Notes under the pieces: model-generated | What the model saw: only the letters and a program-made list of their open reading frames with translations | What the model was told of the DNA's origin: nothing | The model's database searches: none | DNA from: Nitzschia sp. pyKryTriq1 | Taxonomy: Eukaryota; Bacillariophyta; Bacillariophyceae; Bacillariales; Bacillariaceae | Assembly: GCA_956465555.1 (NCBI GenBank) | Contig: OY101121.1 | Span: 1,574,722 to 1,638,721 of the forward strand | Direction of reading: 5' to 3' | DNA length: 64,000 nt | In this document: positions 23,796 through 34,874 of the stretch, one piece after another | Numbering within the stretch: position 1 is the first letter of the stretch | Layout of the letters: each line of letters begins with the position of its first letter | Program-made: the position numbers and the translations under genes

Positions 23796-24509
23796 CTACT
23801 TTTTCACTGTAGCTCCCAGCACATGGACCGACCATCGCATTAAACCTACCACTGCATCCCGAATATAAAAGCGCCGTCCATCTACCAACGTTGACCGATA
23901 TCCTTGATAAATGTCAATCCAATTTTCCGGATCTTCCCGCAAGGTTTGCAATCGCATACTCCACGCCTCCTGATCCAGCCCAGGAGCAGCCACTCGACAG
24001 GCCGGCATGTTCAGAAGAGCGTCCCGAGACAGTTGAAAGGCACTGCAGGCACCAAAATTGACGTAATTGTTGGTGGGTCCATCCATCCCATTGACGCTCC
24101 CGTGCGACATGAGGGCAAAGCGAAGGTTCATGTGGACTTCGTCGTCCCACCCCTCCTCCGAAGAATCGTCGTCGTGATCATTTCTATTACCGAGTAATCC
24201 CATCCACTCCAATAAGCCCTGTTTGCTGAAGCGTTTCAGGTTTCGATCCAAGATAGAGAGGTGCACCGTTTGATCGAATTCTTCTTCTTCTTCGTCATCG
24301 GCGTCGGTGCTTTTTGCATTGAAAGAGGGTGACGGAGATGAAGATGACGCGATATGAAAGTTGTTCTTGTTCCTCATCACCAGACGGCGATGACGACGAT
24401 CACCACCGCGACCACCTTTTCTTGGAAGTAGCATGGTACTCGGAGTCCAACCATGACAGAATCTTAATAAGAAAACTGAGCACCAGAAAAGCGATTGGAT
24501 AACCTGCAT
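23796..24509 (-). CDS. Hypothetical protein with signal peptide
   Basis: A 237-residue frame from ATG 24509. Residues 1-20 form a hydrophobic signal (IQSLFWCSVFLLRFCHG), followed by a basic Arg/Gly-rich and then Ser-rich linker, an acidic run, and a folded-looking C-terminal half with EGWDDEVHMNLRFALM and VDGRRFYIRDAVVGLMRWSV. No family is recognised. The order signal, basic linker, domain would fit a plastid protein, but the cleavage site lacks a clear A-F motif. It is convergent with the LRR gene and diverges from the Fic-RING gene. Confidence 0.65.
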   Translation of the reverse strand: MQVIQSLFWCSVFLLRFCHGWTPSTMLLPRKGGRGGDRRHRRLVMRNKNNFHIASSSSPSPSFNAKSTDADDEEEEEFDQTVHLSILDRNLKRFSKQGLLEWMGLLGNRNDHDDDSSEEGWDDEVHMNLRFALMSHGSVNGMDGPTNNYVNFGACSAFQLSRDALLNMPACRVAAPGLDQEAWSMRLQTLREDPENWIDIYQGYRSTLVDGRRFYIRDAVVGLMRWSVHVLGATVKK

Positions 24510-24953: not shown

Positions 24954-27296
24954 ATGAGCGATCCACCCGAGCGGCCCAATGCTGGCTTCAAGCGTTCCAG
25001 AGTCGACCTCGAACCAAACAACAATCCAGCTTCGTCAGCTGCTGCTGCTGCTGCTGCTGCTGCTTTTCGTCAAGGCCAAGGCATTTCGAGTACGAGTAAT
25101 ACAAATAATAATGCGGCACGAATACTTCAAACTGGAAACTTTGGCGCCTGGCTAGCAAAAATTGCCGAGAATCCCGCGCAGGACGGCCATGAAATTTTTG
25201 GAAGCCTCCCCGCTGTTGGAACACCCTCCTTTCAGACCCTTCAACTGATTGCTAATTTTCTGGCGCAACATCATCTCGCCGAAGCCGCTTCCAAGAGCGG
25301 TGGTGGCGACGGCGACAACAACAACAACAACAATCCGTCGAATAGTAGTCCGAGAGACCAGCACATTTCCACAGCACCCTACTACCTACCGACGCTGAAA
25401 GAATTTGCGCACGCTCAGCTAGATCGCCAGGCAGCCGGCCTCGGAACAAATGCGAGCCGAGAAACAGCAGCGGGTGTGACGCAGCTCATTGAAGATCACT
25501 CGAATGCGCTGCAAGTGGTGTTGGCGGCAGAACAGACTACGTCCTCGCTCTTGTCGAACGAAACCATATGTCTGGTGCATAGGCGTCTGTGTCCGACACT
25601 TCCAGTGTCAGGACGATATCGAACTTCCAGAGCGAGAGCGGGACAAACATTTTTTTGTCCTCCAGAGAATATTTCAAGGGAGATGGATCTCTTCTGGACT
25701 AGTATGCAGAAGCTTGAGCAGCAATACATACATTCCAGCAACCGCCCACCAGATATTACCCGAGACATTTCCAAGCTATATTTTTCTATTGCTATGGCGG
25801 CCACAGCAATGTATGCTATCAATGATATACATCCATTCGCAGATGGAAACGGACGAACTTCACGCATCTATGCCAACGGACTTTTGAAACAACTTCTTCA
25901 ACTGCCATTCACCATCACGATTGCCGCGACACCGCAGCAACGACAAGAATATGTGGACGGACTTCGAAATGGACACCGGCGAATCATCATCGATCAGAAT
26001 AACACCAACACGAGCGCTACAAGTACGACGACTAATAGTCCTGGTGTCGTTGCAGCAGTCATGCAGCCACTCATTCAAATGCTGATGGAGCGTATAGCTC
26101 ATGCGGTGGCACAAGTTCAATCGCTATTGACAGAGCGGGCCAGAGCTGCCGTAGATGAAGAAGAGGCTCGCATCGCAAGACGAGTCCGCGAACGGGCGGC
26201 ACAAGGTCAATGCATCATTTGCTTGGACGCGTCCCCAAATATCGCTACATTGTGTTGTGGACAAGCGGTGCATCTGAATTGCATCGCCGAGTGGCTTGCC
26301 AACGGGACTACGTGTGTCAATTGCCGGAATCCTTTGCCCCGGTTGAGTGTGGCTAATAATAGGCAACCGGGTGCTGCTGCCGCTCCCCAGAATGCTGGAG
26401 GAGATATGGATAACTTGCACGAAGCTTTTCAGGCAATGCAAGATGCCGTGCAACGGGCCATTGAGCTACAAAATAATATGGATGGTGTCCAGCAGAACGG
26501 GGAAGACTTCACAACAAACACTACTACATCCGTACATGACGATGATGAGGAATCTACCACTACAACAGCGGTGGGAGCAAATGCACCACCGCTGCCCCCT
26601 ACTTGTCCCAATTGTCAAAATCGCTCGGCTATTGATTGTGACAATGGAATGTGTGGAAGATGTTGTGGGATCTATGGTGGAGGCTCATGTCCCCGGCATG
26701 GAACGATAGGGGGGCATCAAAACCATGCGGATACGACGTCCACAGTAGACGACGACCAAGATACGACTACTACCACCGTGGCACCAGCACCGCCACCACG
26801 ACCCCAGTGCCATCGTTGCAACAACATTATGGCTGTAGATTGTGATAATCAAATGTGCGCACAATGCTGTGGCACATACGGTAATGATCCCTGCAATCGA
26901 CACGGAACTGCAGGAAATCGTGCTTCTCAGATCGAAGACACCACTACTACTACGACTACCACGGACGATGATGCGACCAACCAGGCTTCCGACGAGTGTC
27001 CTACCTGCTCCAACATATCAGCCTTTGGTTGTACCAACCACATGTGCGGTAGATGTTGTCCGACTCTTGGGGCCCATACATGTGAACGACACGACCCACC
27101 GCAGCCACAGCCCGATGAGGATACGTCCTCCACGACGACGACAAGTACGGTGCAACAAGCTCCATCATCTCAGCCAACATACTGCGACTCTTGCAGTCGG
27201 AATCGAGCTGCCTTGGACTGTGCCAACCATATGTGTGGTAGATGCTGCGTCTTGAGCGGACTTACCCATCGCTGTAATCGTCATGGTGGCATGTAG
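24954..27296 (+). CDS. Fic-domain / RING-finger fusion with Cys-rich repeats
   Basis: A 780-residue single-exon protein with an unusual architecture. Residues about 180-345 are a Fic domain with the full active-site motif HPFADGNGR (293-301); Fic enzymes usually transfer AMP to protein hydroxyls. Just before it, VLAAEQ (189-194) resembles a degenerate autoinhibitory motif whose Glu is kept. Residues 420-457 are a RING finger (CIICLDAS, CCGQAVHLNCIAEW, CVNCRNP), the signature of E3 ubiquitin ligases. The C-terminal third carries four copies of a Cys-rich module of about 32 residues (551-582, 619-650, 682-713, 744-777) with pattern CxxC...DC-x-N-x-MC-xx-CC...C-xx-H. Acidic, poly-Thr linkers separate them. 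The N-terminus is low-complexity with poly-Ala and poly-Asn. There is no signal peptide, so cytosolic or nuclear action is likely. Confidence 0.92.
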   Translation: MSDPPERPNAGFKRSRVDLEPNNNPASSAAAAAAAAAFRQGQGISSTSNTNNNAARILQTGNFGAWLAKIAENPAQDGHEIFGSLPAVGTPSFQTLQLIANFLAQHHLAEAASKSGGGDGDNNNNNNPSNSSPRDQHISTAPYYLPTLKEFAHAQLDRQAAGLGTNASRETAAGVTQLIEDHSNALQVVLAAEQTTSSLLSNETICLVHRRLCPTLPVSGRYRTSRARAGQTFFCPPENISREMDLFWTSMQKLEQQYIHSSNRPPDITRDISKLYFSIAMAATAMYAINDIHPFADGNGRTSRIYANGLLKQLLQLPFTITIAATPQQRQEYVDGLRNGHRRIIIDQNNTNTSATSTTTNSPGVVAAVMQPLIQMLMERIAHAVAQVQSLLTERARAAVDEEEARIARRVRERAAQGQCIICLDASPNIATLCCGQAVHLNCIAEWLANGTTCVNCRNPLPRLSVANNRQPGAAAAPQNAGGDMDNLHEAFQAMQDAVQRAIELQNNMDGVQQNGEDFTTNTTTSVHDDDEESTTTTAVGANAPPLPPTCPNCQNRSAIDCDNGMCGRCCGIYGGGSCPRHGTIGGHQNHADTTSTVDDDQDTTTTTVAPAPPPRPQCHRCNNIMAVDCDNQMCAQCCGTYGNDPCNRHGTAGNRASQIEDTTTTTTTTDDDATNQASDECPTCSNISAFGCTNHMCGRCCPTLGAHTCERHDPPQPQPDEDTSSTTTTSTVQQAPSSQPTYCDSCSRNRAALDCANHMCGRCCVLSGLTHRCNRHGGM

Positions 27297-28043: not shown

Positions 28044-29865
28044 ATGACCACAGAAGAGGAAGAAGTCGTCATGGTGGAGCATTCGGACGCCAAAACAACT
28101 AGCAGTGACGACACAGATGCCGTTCCCGACCTAGCCGAAGAAGAGACTTCGAAAAGGAAGAACAATAATTCTCCAGAACCGACACAGATTGTGTCCATCG
28201 GGACAGAGGAAGACGCCTTTGCATTCACGTTCCATGAGGACAGACTCAATGAGATTATCCGCAAAGTTCCTCCTGGTTGGAAGGTCGCCGTCGTGAGCGT
28301 GGTCGGTGCGTTTCGAACGGGTAAGAGTTTCCTGCTGAGCTGGTTCTTGAAGTACTTGCATCACTTGACGAATGGTGGAGAATCAGGCAATGATGATGAC
28401 TCCTCCAAAAAATGGTACGAGCAAGTGCAGAGCCTGGGGCAAGACTCGGGATTTGATTGGCGAGGAGGAAGTGAACGTAACACAACTGGAATCTGGATGT
28501 GGAGTCAACCTCATTTCGTTACCAAGCCTAGTGAGGATGGAACGGGCGGTCAGGAAACCATCGCAGTTCTTCTCGTTGATTCTCAAGGCATGTTTGACAA
28601 TGAAACTACCATGAGTTTGACGGCGAGCATCTTTGGGTTGTCGACCCTGCTTAGCTCCTACCAGATTTACAATGTTGACAAGCGCATTCAAGAAGACAAT
28701 TTGCAGCAACTAGCTCTCTTTTCAGAGTACGCGAGATTGGCTGTGGAAGCCGATCAGGCTCATCAAAGTGCTGGTGTCGAGATTGTGAAACCGTTCCAGA
28801 GAATGGAATTCTTGGTCCGAGATTGGCAACACTTTGAAGAAGAGGAGAACTATGACGCCATGGAGAAAGAAATGGGGGAGTACCTGGACAAAGTTATTGC
28901 AGAGCGGGACGCAAAGGATTTGCAGGAGACTAGAGAGCAAATATTGGCTTGTTTCGAGTCGTTGTCATGTTTTGGACTGTGCCACCCGGGTATGTCAGTA
29001 ATCAAAAAGTCCTACGATGGAAGCGTTGACAAGATCGAAAAGGACTTTTTGGAGCTGTTGGACAGGTACTGCAAGCGCGTCTTTAGCGTGGATCGTTTGA
29101 TGCCAAAGACCATCCAAGGCCGTCAAGTGACGGCGGCTGAGCTGGCTGCCTACATCAAGGCCTACGCGACTATGTTTTCATCCGGCGCCAGCTTTCCTGA
29201 AGCCAGTACCATGCTGGAGGCCACGGCGACTGCAAATAACCAAAACGCTGTCAATCTGGCTATTGCTGCATACAAGGACCCTATGAGTCGTATTGCTGGA
29301 CCGAAGTGCTCCAACTATATTCGTCCCCAGGAGTTAAAGGATGATCACAAGAAGCTTCTTGCCAAGGCTCTGGAAGTCTTCGATACTATGGCCACCTTTG
29401 GAAGTAAAAAAGCAATCGAAGGTGCTCGGAACACAGTCGTTGAGCAGATTCATGACGACTTTGAAGTGTACACCTCGCTGAATGATTCTCGCAATCCTTT
29501 AGCGGGGCTCGAAACGTGGGTACTGCTTGATTTATTTATTTTGAAGTGTCGACAAAGCTTTTATGTGCTCAGAAACTCACCCCACTTTTTTCTCGTTTAC
29601 TCGGCATCTGTGTAGTTACGCCCTGCCACTCACTGTTGCGTTGGTGGCATTCATTTTGAGATGGATTGCCGATATGACGTGCTCGCCGTACTCGCAGGTT
29701 TGTAGAAAGAGTTCTGACTTTCTGTCTCATATCTATGCCGTCGTCATTATCTTTTTGTTCATCGTGGGCGCCACCAAGGCCAAGCAAATTAAAGACCTTT
29801 TCAACAAGGTCAAGGCCGCATTCGAAATGATGAATTCCGACGGTGCCAAGAAAAAGAAGGACTAG
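28044..29865 (+). CDS. Atlastin/GBP-like large GTPase with C-terminal membrane hairpin
   Basis: Dynamin-superfamily GTPase of the atlastin type, which tethers and fuses ER tubules. Exon 1 is 28044-29515 and exon 2 is 29616-29865. The P-loop is VGAFRTGKSFLL, the switch region has RNTTGIWMW, G3 is VLLVDSQGMFD, and the guanine-specificity Arg-Asp is in FLVRDWQHF. A helical middle domain follows. Exon 2 encodes two hydrophobic segments (YALPLTVALVAFILRW and HIYAVVIIFLFIVGA) and a Lys-rich helical tail, as in atlastins. Keeping the frame into exon 2 requires donor GTGGGT after 29515, a less common but legal GT donor; the nearer GTACTG is out of phase. The product is 573 residues. Confidence 0.9.
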
Positions 29866-30122: not shown

Positions 30123-31340
30123 CTACCGTAATGTGTTTGGCGAAACATTTTGTTCGAAGCGTTCGTTGAACATTTCGACAATGATCGTCGCAGTCTCCTC
30201 CACAGAAACCCCGGTAACATCTATTTCTGTCCAATTGTGTTTCTGGGCCAACATGCGAGCGTTCTGTAGATCTTTCAAAAGGTAATTGCGATCAGCATAG
30301 TTCGATTGACTGGATCCTGACGCCTCGTTCTTGGCTTCAACCTTTCGAACATTCCGACGCTCCAATCGGCTGGTTCGGATTTTCCTCAGTTGAGTCGGGG
30401 CAATGGTTAAACAAAAGACTCGGCGTGGGTCTACTTCCTCAAGTAGTTCAGCCGGAGGGGGTACTTCCAGTACCAGCGGGATATTTGCAACTTTAAGTGA
30501 CATCGTCTGCGACAAGACGACTGAGAGAGGTGTTTTCCCGCTTCTGCTAACCCCCACAATGACAACATCAGCCTCAGACAGCAACCATGGTGATTGTCCA
30601 TCGTCTGCTTTCAGGCAAAATTCCACAGCATCCATCCGTTTATAATACGAGTCGCCAAGTGTCCGACGCCTTGAGCTGCCCTGGAAACGCGCTGGAATTC
30701 CATAGGGCTTCTTTCCCAGATGGTCTCCAAGGATATCAAGTGCCGGTCCCATCAAATCTACATGAAGGATTCCCTTTTCGCCACATAGATCTGCAGCAAA
30801 TCTTCGCAATTCACCATCAGCCAATGTATACATGACACAAGCGTCTTTTTCCTTTGCTGTTTGAAGAATCTGAGATAAAGCCGACGTGCTTCGGATAAAA
30901 GTAAACGTCCTGCTCTGCACGTCACAGGCATCGCCAAACATGTCGGCTTCGCCGTATCCATCGTCGCTCCCACCAATATCATCAGCACAAGTGTCAAACT
31001 GCGCCAGGCTTTTAAGAAGTGTTGATCGCGCCGTTACTCCAGTGGCATCCGACACCAAAAATACCATCCTTGTTGTCGGGGCCACTCCTGGTGGCGTGCA
31101 GTCGATGTCGTCGTCTTCTGGTCGATACAATATCGCCCGCGCAGATACAGCACTTTCAGTCATGTTCAATATTTCGTAATCAACATCCTGACTTGACTGA
31201 TCTTCGACAGACAAATCCAACGTTTGTGGAGAATGTCGCGATCGGACCACCGTGCATTCCACACAATTGCGTCGAACGAGGAAAGCATGACACGGCAAGC
31301 CCAAAACAATCGAAGCGGTGATGGAGATAAGAGATCTCAT
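30123..31340 (-). CDS. PPDK regulatory protein (bifunctional kinase/phosphorylase)
   Basis: A 405-residue member of the DUF299/PPDK-regulatory-protein family. The plant enzyme inactivates PPDK by ADP-dependent phosphorylation of a threonine and reactivates it by phosphorolysis. Landmarks are FLVSDATGVTARSTL (residues 94-108), the segment RRTLGDSYYKRMDAVEF, the P-loop GVSRSGKT (263-270), and the family's C-terminal SNYADRNYLLKDL and ARMLAQKHNW. The N-terminus (LISITASIVLGLPCHAFLVRR) is a signal-like leader ending in HAF, compatible with diatom plastid targeting. It stands head to head with the PPDK gene, its expected substrate, 549 bp away. Confidence 0.93.
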   Translation of the reverse strand: MRSLISITASIVLGLPCHAFLVRRNCVECTVVRSRHSPQTLDLSVEDQSSQDVDYEILNMTESAVSARAILYRPEDDDIDCTPPGVAPTTRMVFLVSDATGVTARSTLLKSLAQFDTCADDIGGSDDGYGEADMFGDACDVQSRTFTFIRSTSALSQILQTAKEKDACVMYTLADGELRRFAADLCGEKGILHVDLMGPALDILGDHLGKKPYGIPARFQGSSRRRTLGDSYYKRMDAVEFCLKADDGQSPWLLSEADVVIVGVSRSGKTPLSVVLSQTMSLKVANIPLVLEVPPPAELLEEVDPRRVFCLTIAPTQLRKIRTSRLERRNVRKVEAKNEASGSSQSNYADRNYLLKDLQNARMLAQKHNWTEIDVTGVSVEETATIIVEMFNERFEQNVSPNTLR

Positions 31341-31889
31341 TCTAGAATAAGTAGGCTGAGCCTTTTTTCAGTTTCGTTGGAGCGATGGAGACAAGGCCTT
31401 GCTGCTGACTGCTGCATTTCCCCTTGCGGTCGTCTGATATCGTCTCATTGGAATGGTGTATCTCAGCAATGATGAAAAGAAAAAAGAACAAGACACAAGA
31501 CACGCCGCCATCGGCCGCGAGCGAAGAAGAACAACAACGAATTTTCCAGGGTTGACACCAGTCGGGCGTCTTTTTGGATATCACGGGTTTTTGCAGCTGG
31601 GTTTGTAGATTTATTAAGGGATTTGCTTATGCGTCATGTCGTATACGACACAATCACTTAATGTTTCCTTCTTAGATCTTTCTTTTCCCACGCCACGTCA
31701 GAAAAGGTAGATATGCCCTCACATTTGATGGCTTTCTTCTTTTCTTTTATGATAATGAATGGGATGTGAGCGATTGATGAAGATGATGTTGCCGTTCCTT
31801 CTTTCCATTGTGATTGTTGACGAAGCTTCTCACAAAAATAATAAGAATCACAAACCTGCAAGGTCCGCCAACAATATCGATCAAAGGTC
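31341..31889. promoter_or_regulatory. Shared divergent promoter region of RP and PPDK
   Basis: The 549 bp between the two start codons. It contains ACGTCA at 31695-31700 and GCGTCA at 31631-31636. These match the CRE-like CO2/cAMP-responsive hexamers described for diatom carbonic anhydrase promoters (TGACGT, ACGTCA, TGACGC). Such hexamers are expected by chance fairly often in a region of this size, so the link to CO2 control is only a hypothesis. The bidirectional role is inferred from geometry. Confidence 0.5.
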
Positions 31890-34874
31890 ATGAAAGTCTG
31901 CCGACTTACCATAAGTAGCCTGCTGCTTCTCGCTGGGGTCTCCGAGGCATTTGCTCCCCGAGCTTTCCTCCCCACCCGAGGCCAATCGAGTTTGCTCGTT
32001 GCGACCGATCCAACGGCCACTTCCAATGACAGGCTGGGATTGGAATATCCTGCAATTTCACCTTTTGGCAAGGGTCAAGATGTCGGCTCTGCCGACAAAC
32101 AAATCTTGGGCGGTAAAGGCGCCAACTTGGCGGTCATGACCAGCATTGGTTTGAGTGTACCGCCTGGGTTTACCCTTTCAACAGAATGTTGTGATCGGTT
32201 TTGCAACGCGTGGAACATGGAGCTGCCCGACGAACTCTGGGACCAAGTCAAAGCATCTCTCAAGGCAGTCGAAGAAGAGATGGGAGCGGAATTCGGCTCT
32301 CCGTCGAACCCCCTTCTTCTCTCAGTCCGTTCAGGAGCAGCCATTTCAATGCCGGTAAGAATTTCTTTTTTGTGACTGTCGAAGCGTTCTTGGAAATCAA
32401 TCTCAACCTGTTTCATGTCGACTGTACGAGCAGGGAATGATGGATACGGTCTTGAACCTTGGCATGAATGATGAAGTTGTTGTGGGTCTAGCGCAAAAGA
32501 CAGGCAACCCTCGATTCGCTTGGGATTCGTACAGGCGCTTTCTTGAGATGTTCGGCAACGTCGTGCTGGATATTCCGAGGAGCGAATTCGAAGATGAGTT
32601 AGACGATGTCAAGTACGATAAAAATATCTTTGAAGACTCCGAATTAACAGCTGAAGACTTCCAGGTGGTAGTGGAAAAGTTCAAACAGGTTTACCACAAT
32701 AATAACATCTCTTTTACCCAAGATCCCATGGAGCAACTGAAATTGGCGATTGGAGCTGTCTTCAAGGGGTGGATGGGCTCTCGTGCGGTGAAGTATCGAG
32801 AAGTTGAAAACATTCGCAATCTATTGGGAACTGCCGTCAATGTCCAGTCAATGGTCTTCGGGAACATGGGTGATACGTCGGGCACTGGCGTATGTTTCAC
32901 TCGTGACCCCAACACAGGCGAAAATGAAATTTTTGGAGAGTTCTTGATCGATGCTCAAGGAGAGGACGTTGTCGCTGGTATCCGCACACCAAAACCTATC
33001 TCTGAACTTGAGGAAATTATGCCAGAAGTCTATGCTGAGTTCAAGCGCAATACCGAGATTCTGGAGAAGCACTACGGTGACATGCAAGACATTGAATTCA
33101 CTATCCAGGAAGGCAAGCTGTTTATGCTACAGACTCGAAATGGAAAGCGAGGTGGGGAAGCGGCTGTCAAAATTTCTGTTGACTTGGTTCGCGAGGGGTT
33201 GATTACAAAGGAAGAAGCCATCATGAAGGTACTTCCAGAACATTTGGATCAACTCTTGCACCCTCGTTTCCCTGACGTGGAACAAAAGGAATACAAGGAT
33301 GCCGTCATGACCAGGGGGCTGCCAGCGTCTCCGGGTGCCGCTGTCGGCCGAATCGCTTTCTCAAATGAAAAAGTTGTAGAAAACAAGGAAAAGGGAATTC
33401 CATCTATCATGGTCCGCGATGAGGTAAGAAAACAAAATGTTTCGGTGGATGGTGGGATGTAATAAAGGATGTAACTGTCTAACAATCACAAACTGTCGTC
33501 AAGACGTCTCCTGATGACGTCGAGGGAATGTACGCCGCTGAAGGTATCTTGACCGCCCGTGGAGGGATGACTAGTCATGCAGCAGTTGTTGCCCGTGGGT
33601 GGGGAAAACCGTGCATCTGTGGTTGCTCATCTATCAGCGTTGACGAGGCAAACGGTCAGGTTACCATTGCTTTGGAAGGCGGTAGAAAGAAAACGTTTCA
33701 AGAGGGGGACTTCATTAGTCTAAATGGACAGACGGGAGAAGTCTTGGAGGGCCAGCAAACCGTTGCCCCTCCAGCAATCACTGGTAACCTCAAGACTTTG
33801 ATGGAATGGGTGGATGACATCAGGACCATCGATGTTCTGGCAAACGCTGATACGCCAGCTGATGCCGCAGAAGCAAGGAAGAATGGTGCGAATGGAATTG
33901 GTCTCTGCCGTAGCGAGCACATGTTTTTCGCTCCTGCTCGTATCAGTATGGTGAGGCAGCTGATCCTCGGCAATGATGAGCAAGCAGAGGAAGCATTGAA
34001 GGAACTATTAGTATTCCAACGCGAAGATTACGAAGGCATCTTCAAGGCTATGGATGGCCTTCCTGTCACGATCCGACTCTTAGACCCCCCACTTCACGAG
34101 TTCCTTCCTTCGCCGAAGGACGAGGAGGTTTTTAAGGATCTGGCGGAGCAACTAGGATCTTCTGTTGATGAGCTTCGAGAAAAGGTCGAGGACATGGAAG
34201 AAGTCAATCCTATGCTTGGGCTTCGAGGATGCCGCCTTGGTATTACACGACCCGCTATCATCGAGATGCAAACCCGTGCCATCATCGAAGGGGCTTTGAA
34301 TGCAATCGAGAACGATGTCGATGCCAAGTCTGACATTATGGTCCCGTTGGTCGGAAAGGTTGAGGAGTTTCGAAATCAAGCCGCCTTGATTCGTAAAGTC
34401 GCCAACCAAGTCTTTGAGGAGCGGGGCAAGACTTGTGATTTTAAAGTTGGAACTATGATCGAGATTCCACGAGCAGCTTTGACCGCTCATGAAATTGCCG
34501 AGGAGGCCGACTTCTTCTCGTTCGGATCTAACGATCTGACTCAGATGACGTTTGGATATTCCCGTGACGATGTAGGAACATTCTTGCCTTCCTACATAAA
34601 CCAAGGTATTCTACTGGACGACCCCTTCGTTACAATCGATACCGCCGGCGTCGGTCAATTGATCAAGATGACCGTGGAGAAGGGTCGTGCTGTCAAGCCT
34701 GGTTTGAAGATCGGTGTTTGTGGCGAGCATGGTGGTGATCCGCGCTCTGTCCGCTTCTTCTCCAATGATGCTGGATTGTCCTATGTAAGCTGCTCGCCAT
34801 TCCGAGTTCCTATTGCTCGTCTGGCTGGTGCGCAAGCTGAAGTGGAAAAGCCGACAAACGGCTTTCATCCTTAG
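31890..34874 (+). CDS. PPDK: Pyruvate, phosphate dikinase, plastid-targeted
   Basis: Interconverts pyruvate, ATP and phosphate with phosphoenolpyruvate, AMP and pyrophosphate. Three exons: 31890-32354, 32434-33423 and 33504-34874, with introns of 79 and 80 bp, both phase 0. The first joins [10 protein letters not shown] to [10 protein letters not shown] and the second joins VRDE to [14 protein letters not shown], restoring conserved blocks. The swivelling His is in [18 protein letters not shown] (His510), and the regulatory threonine two residues before it (Thr508), the RP target, is present. The PEP/pyruvate domain has [17 protein letters not shown] and [18 protein letters not shown]. The N-terminus is a signal peptide ([19 protein letters not shown]) with a classic A-F plastid cleavage motif. 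The product is 941 residues, with a short extra tail after the usual end. Confidence 0.97.

Follow-up and report, generated by a model that had tools for sequence, protein, structure and literature searches.

Can a single protein chain carry both a Fic domain, the fold associated with transfer of adenosine monophosphate (AMP), and a RING finger of the kind found in ubiquitin ligases? The question is raised by a gene in a 64,000-nucleotide stretch of Nitzschia sp. pyKryTriq1 DNA (the window; contig OY101121.1, positions 1,574,722 to 1,638,721), where the frame 24954-27296 on the forward strand encodes 780 residues in one exon, with 0 stops and 0 introns. Pfam places Fic (PF02661) at residues 200-310 and zf-RING_2 (PF13639) at 419-458 of this protein, both above the curated cut-offs; among solved structures, residues 205-335 are nearest in sequence to FICD and the RING to gp78/AMFR. 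The first-pass annotation of this DNA had described a Fic-RING fusion followed by four Cys/His modules; the fusion is intact and conserved across homologues, and all four modules are present (Table 1). Animal Fic biology rests largely on a single endoplasmic reticulum (ER) enzyme, FICD. Combining AMP transfer with a ubiquitin-ligase-like RING on one chain would be a direct link between two protein-tagging systems.

Bifunctionality is our leading, if tentative, reading; caution is called for mainly because the RING is non-canonical and dead-Fic paralogues exist. As far as sequence and structure models go, we regard it as somewhat favored that the protein is a nuclear or cytosolic AMPylase with a RING that recruits a ubiquitin-conjugating enzyme (E2), coupling AMP and ubiquitin signals on one scaffold. 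The FICD-like Fic domain, with its complete AMP-transferase motif, would AMPylate (or de-AMPylate) a client; the helical linker would hold it at a nearly fixed distance from the RING variant, which, keeping the residues for binding ubiquitin-charged E2, would recruit that enzyme; and the C-terminal SHI-like Cys modules, probably zinc-binding, would recruit or localize clients. AMP transfer, E2 recruitment, zinc binding, localization and the sharing of clients are thus what we infer; the architecture, its conservation, the Fic motif and the modelled Fic fold are the established layer of the reading.

A conserved Fic-RING family

The layout is not due to chance, since homologues retain the same parts. 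A protein search, which scored the best 8000 candidates by shared words, returned 74 homologues, 69 of them with both PF02661 and PF13639 in precomputed annotations. Four had the Fic domain only (P0007, P0033, P0071, P0073), and these still carry the RING pattern in the alignment; one (P0025) had the RING only. A profile search gave 92 proteins: 83 belong to the family, the weakest at E=1.7e-53, and nine are stand-alone prokaryote-type Fic proteins starting at E=4.5e-9. Few rows are named, and the named members are all diatoms: Nitzschia inconspicua, Fragilariopsis kerguelensis (taxid 186038) and Cylindrotheca fusiformis. It is scarcely credible that the fusion is an artefact of assembly or gene reading; the order and spacing common to homologues from many contigs and transcript collections largely refute this explanation, and nothing was found that speaks for it. 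The first-pass annotation had asked whether transcripts might split the Fic and RING parts into two genes. For the relatives P0014, P0037 and P0038, and for these relatives only, such a split fails, because their transcript-derived proteins carry both Pfam domains in one chain.

Among the matches listed for viral contigs (59 loci) and for prokaryote genomes (best 80 of 93 relatives), none spans the RING, and two loci in these scans, L144 (279-429) and L147 (234-422), reach its first residues. These scans thus lend no support to an origin of the entire architecture in prokaryotes or viruses. Fic domains as such are common in the prokaryotes and viruses scanned, so that the Fic part alone may have such an ancestry. 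Among the open-licence papers on Fic that were listed, no title or abstract start describes a Fic-RING protein. The main text of PMC4454073 does not contain RING, zinc finger, ubiquitin, diatom, Phaeodactylum or Thalassiosira, and in the available parts of two reviews (PMC8097203 and PMC12894286) ubiquitin ligases (E3) appear solely in their interplay with bacterial effectors. We conclude that this is a real, conserved family in which two known enzyme modules stand in a new combination for which no published description was found.

The Fic domain and its link to the RING

The Fic domain scores 53.7 bits against a Pfam cut-off of 24. The motif HxFx(D/E)GNGRxxR, tied to adenylylation in the available part of PMC3667792, is satisfied by HPFADGNGRTSR at residues 293-304, which bears out the intact HPFADGNGR seen at first pass; almost every row of the 75-row main alignment has it complete. 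The Fic fold is strongly supported, both by the AlphaFold2 model and by a fold comparison matching FICD; the 50 rows listed by this comparison are all Fic chains, and it barely probed the RING and the modules, so that missing RING rows are uninformative. We think it quite unlikely that, in place of AMP transfer, the domain carries out a related reaction, either de-AMPylation or the transfer of a different nucleotide. The ER Fic protein both AMPylates and de-AMPylates (PMC6066327, available part), and the canonical inhibitory motif is missing here, but the motif present is the adenylylation-linked one.

The canonical class II motif (S/T)xxxE(G/N) before helix alpha1 is absent from the 780-residue protein, and 6 of 72 members have a match on the N-terminal side. 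The degenerate inhibitory motif VLAAEQ proposed at first pass turned out to be wrong: its Glu, E193, is Glu in just 3 of 75 rows, aligns to alpha1, on the C-terminal side of the class II IEG motif, and lies inside the modelled helix 172-194. The conserved helix 144-166 occupies the place of the class II inhibitory helix, so that inhibition by another residue is possible. Attempts to set E150 or D157 opposite the inhibitory Glu in 121 class II-like loci gave no register. A profile alignment with these loci places IEG near E150 at low confidence, so that SSQLDRQ is at most a tentative counterpart of SSxIEGN.

Between Fic domain and RING, residues 371-416 are modelled as one long helix. The first Cys of the RING follows the Fic His by 127 residues, close to the 120 given at first pass. 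In 81 of the 92 sequences (the other 11 are without one motif) this distance runs from 105 to 149, with a median of 124 and a standard deviation of 7.1; the distance from the RING to the last module is more variable (standard deviation 45.2, 82 sequences). The RING is the most conserved of the segments measured: its mean majority fraction is 0.78, while the Fic core has 0.60 and the linker region, close behind that core, 0.55.

The RING variant, the dead-Fic relatives and competing readings

The zf-RING_2 match (E=3.2e-6) is barely over its cut-off (27.7 against 27.3 bits). In 75 of 75 rows the RING retains W447, R458 and all eight of its Cys/His residues, among them the adjacent pair C434-C435, which places an extra Cys before ligand 3. 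Residue 422 is Ile in 73 rows and Val in the other two. We take I422, W447 and R458 to be the E2-contact Ile/Val, the Trp and the linchpin Arg known from work on c-Cbl and RNF4, and their retention argues for a working RING with predicted E2 recruitment. The E2-contact Pro position is V455 here, in a column of V36, P34, I3 and M2.

Several points weigh against the bifunctional reading. First, the complete C3HC4 RING claimed at first pass did not hold up, since a canonical one is ruled out by the invariant extra Cys together with Q437, which takes the place of the ligand-4 His in an ungapped alignment with gp78/AMFR (E=9e-6). Seven of the eight canonical zinc ligands are thus in place, and the ligand-4 column reads Q37, K28, N7, V1, H1 and A1 across the 75 rows. 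Second, AlphaFold2 modelled residues 421-470 at a predicted local distance difference test (pLDDT) score of about 43-58, although helix 441-449, within this low-confidence stretch, falls where the RING fold expects it. The RING is therefore perhaps not an active E3, and given the lost ligand and the low pLDDT it may not fold at all. Third, a dead-Fic clade retains the RING, and this clade together with the defective Fic motifs in two of the 75 rows (P0025 and P0074) means that AMP transfer is not required in every lineage. Finally, the share of homologues with both domains is perhaps inflated, because candidates were chosen by shared words and conserved words abound in the RING.

A further possibility is that only the Fic domain is active, with the RING variant serving as a structural zinc knot or a protein-binding element without E3 activity. 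The low model confidence and the occupancy of ligand 4 by Gln, Lys or Asn in 72 of 75 rows favor it. However, W447, R458, Ile/Val at 422 and the eight invariant Cys/His fit the E2-binding face and linchpin of RING E3s, the similarity to the gp78 RING is ungapped, and the RING persists after loss of the Fic motif; we therefore consider an inactive RING unlikely. The residue C434 may stand in for the absent zinc ligand. Among 30 RING loci of the same genome, the top-scoring of 104 matches and hence biased towards canonical ones, 18 are canonical by pattern, none is CCG-without-His and 12 are neither.

The genome, read in six frames with introns ignored, has two Pfam Fic matches, the present gene and L002, and both are RING-fused. 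L002:400-3312 is a live paralogue of 970 residues with a longer region before the family-aligned part, and this N-terminal extension has no Pfam domain at E<=1. About 100 bp away and convergent with it lies L003 (L003:337-2691, contig C3, 784 residues), which has a RING over the cut-off and no Fic match at E<=1; it reads ETIKPNRN at the position of HPFADGNGR and keeps the RING pattern intact, while its Cys module has diverged. P0075 and P0076 have likewise lost the Fic motif and have no Cys module by pattern; the RING of P0076, at 22.2 bits, misses the cut-off of 27.3. L003, P0075 and P0076 group together with a support of 100 (quick method, 72 rows), under a long-branch warning. The longest contig is 12457 for both P0057 (live) and P0076 (dead), which suggests that the live/dead pair may be conserved. 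Such dead-Fic, live-RING paralogues allow the contribution of the Fic part to be read from a natural experiment.

They also speak for a different division of labor, in which the RING E3 is the output and the Fic domain serves chiefly to regulate it in response to nucleotide, either by AMPylation in cis (of the RING, the E2 or the linker) or by sensing ATP. The RING is the better conserved part, the Fic-RING spacing is rigid, and L003, P0075 and P0076 keep the RING pattern after losing the Fic motif. Nevertheless, a Fic motif that is complete in almost every row of the main alignment exceeds the needs of a passive sensor, and the C-terminal modules suggest separate clients, with two of the three dead-Fic proteins having no module by pattern. 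We hold this regulatory role to be credible but doubtful, and keep the bifunctional enzyme as our preferred reading. A more far-reaching scenario strikes us as rather doubtful: a diatom single-chain AMPylase-ubiquitin ligase would have replaced the stand-alone Fic protein, its FICD-like Fic domain, rid of the canonical inhibitory motif, would be coupled mechanically by a long helix to a new RING variant with an adjacent Cys pair in the zinc site, and a dead-Fic partner from a convergent neighboring gene would tune an active paralogue.

Table 1. Features of the Fic-RING gene, in window coordinates
Feature	Position	Strand	Evidence
Whole gene, Fic-RING-four Cys modules, 780 residues	24954..27296	+	single-exon open frame, Pfam, homologues
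N-terminal basic cluster KRSRV, residues 13-17, possible nuclear localization signal	24990..25004	+	basic cluster in 50 of 73 members; nuclear role predicted
Conserved helix, residues 144-166 (F..xQLDRQ.A.L), directly before alpha1	25383..25451	+	alignment, motif scan, model, fold comparison
Helix alpha1, residues 172-194, contains VLAAEQ	25467..25535	+	alignment and AlphaFold2 model
Fic domain, residues 200-310	25551..25883	+	Pfam PF02661 (E=4e-14); fold match to FICD
Fic active-site motif HPFADGNGRTSR, residues 293-304	25830..25865	+	motif search, 75-row alignment
Long conserved linker helix, residues 371-416, Fic to RING	26064..26201	+	conservation, model, spacing
RING variant, residues 420-458, C-x2-C-x10-C-C-x4-H-x2-C-x10-C-x2-C-R	26211..26327	+	zf-RING_2, invariant residues, gp78 alignment, low-confidence model
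Cys module 1, residues 551-582, SHI-like	26604..26699	+	pattern, DUF702 match below cut-off, model
Cys module 2, residues 619-650, SHI-like	26808..26903	+	pattern, DUF702 match below cut-off, model
Cys module 3, residues 682-713, SHI-like by spacing	26997..27092	+	pattern; no Pfam match of its own; not confidently modelled
Cys module 4, residues 744-777, near-universal C-terminal module	27183..27284	+	conservation, pattern, model; no Pfam match of its own

C-terminal modules, surroundings and known systems

With a loose pattern, 78 sequences (the 780-residue protein and P0001-P0077) were scanned for Cys modules: 47 have one, 16 two, seven three, one four and seven none, so that 24 carry modules beyond the first. 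The last module ends 1-10 residues before the C-terminus in all 71 module-bearing sequences, and its Cys and His are near-invariant (at least 90%). DUF702 is among the matches (E<=10) of 15 of 30 module peptides, with a best E of 0.02; the next family reaches 3 of 30. The DUF702 cut-off of 20.6 bits is not reached by module 1 (12.4) or module 2 (7.7), and modules 3 and 4 have no match. A DUF702 search of the own genome gave no matches, and the module profile retrieved no convincing structure from the PDB. At E<=1, module 1 finds five places in this genome, four in the present gene and one in L002, in a search that was not exhaustive, as it missed the diverged L003 module. In modules 1, 2 and 4 most of the model lies at pLDDT 80-91, falling to 67 where module 4 ends, and all three have their two bridge residues and short helix in the same order. 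The zinc binding suggested at first pass is plausible from these models and from the SHI/SRS-like Cys pattern; module 3 stands apart, without a confident model.

A basic cluster within the first 80 residues occurs in 50 of the 73 family members of at least 500 residues, and a shuffled N-terminus of the 780-residue protein matches this pattern at 1.6%. The highest 19-residue hydropathy, for segments starting within the first 60 residues, is 0.6, so there is no strongly hydrophobic N-terminus. Both features point to a nuclear or cytosolic location, which would extend Fic function past the ER in major ocean primary producers.

Upstream of the gene, a short open reading frame (23796-24509, reverse strand) has a MEKHLA-domain match barely over the cut-off, and directly downstream lies a guanylate-binding-protein (GBP) GTPase gene (28044-29615). 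Further on, a kinase/pyrophosphorylase gene (PF03618; 30123-31340, reverse strand) is divergent from pyruvate phosphate dikinase pieces at 32437-33462 and 33528-34874 (forward strand). PF03618 is the family of regulatory proteins of this dikinase (PPDK), and an enzyme and its possible regulator thus adjoin within 30123-34874.

How does the protein compare with known systems? FICD, also called HYPE, is a metazoan class II Fic protein with an N-terminal membrane anchor and tetratricopeptide repeats (TPR). The diatom protein shares a FICD-like Fic domain; unlike FICD, it has no TPR match at E<=10, no hydrophobic N-terminus (the maximum of 0.6 given above) and no canonical (S/T)xxxE(G/N), and has a RING and Cys modules instead. 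It also differs from BT_2513 and other prokaryote-type class II Fic proteins, whose Pfam lists are without a RING. With RING E3 ligases of the gp78/AMFR type it has in common the ungapped RING alignment, the Ile, the Trp and the linchpin Arg, whereas ligand 4 is His there and Gln here, and the diatom protein has the extra invariant Cys before ligand 3. Finally, the plant SHI/STY/LRP1 (SRS) proteins, whose RING-like zinc finger is the DUF702 family, have the motif CX2CX7CX4CX2C2X6C in the available parts of PMC7084930 and PMC10576376. Modules 1-3 share its spacing CX2CX7CX4CX2C2 and the last Cys with X7 replacing X6, and module 4 deviates with X8 and X8, so that the last gap is 6 in the published motif and 7-8 here. 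In contrast to that family, the modules fall below the DUF702 cut-off, are repeated and stand at the C-terminus of an enzyme.
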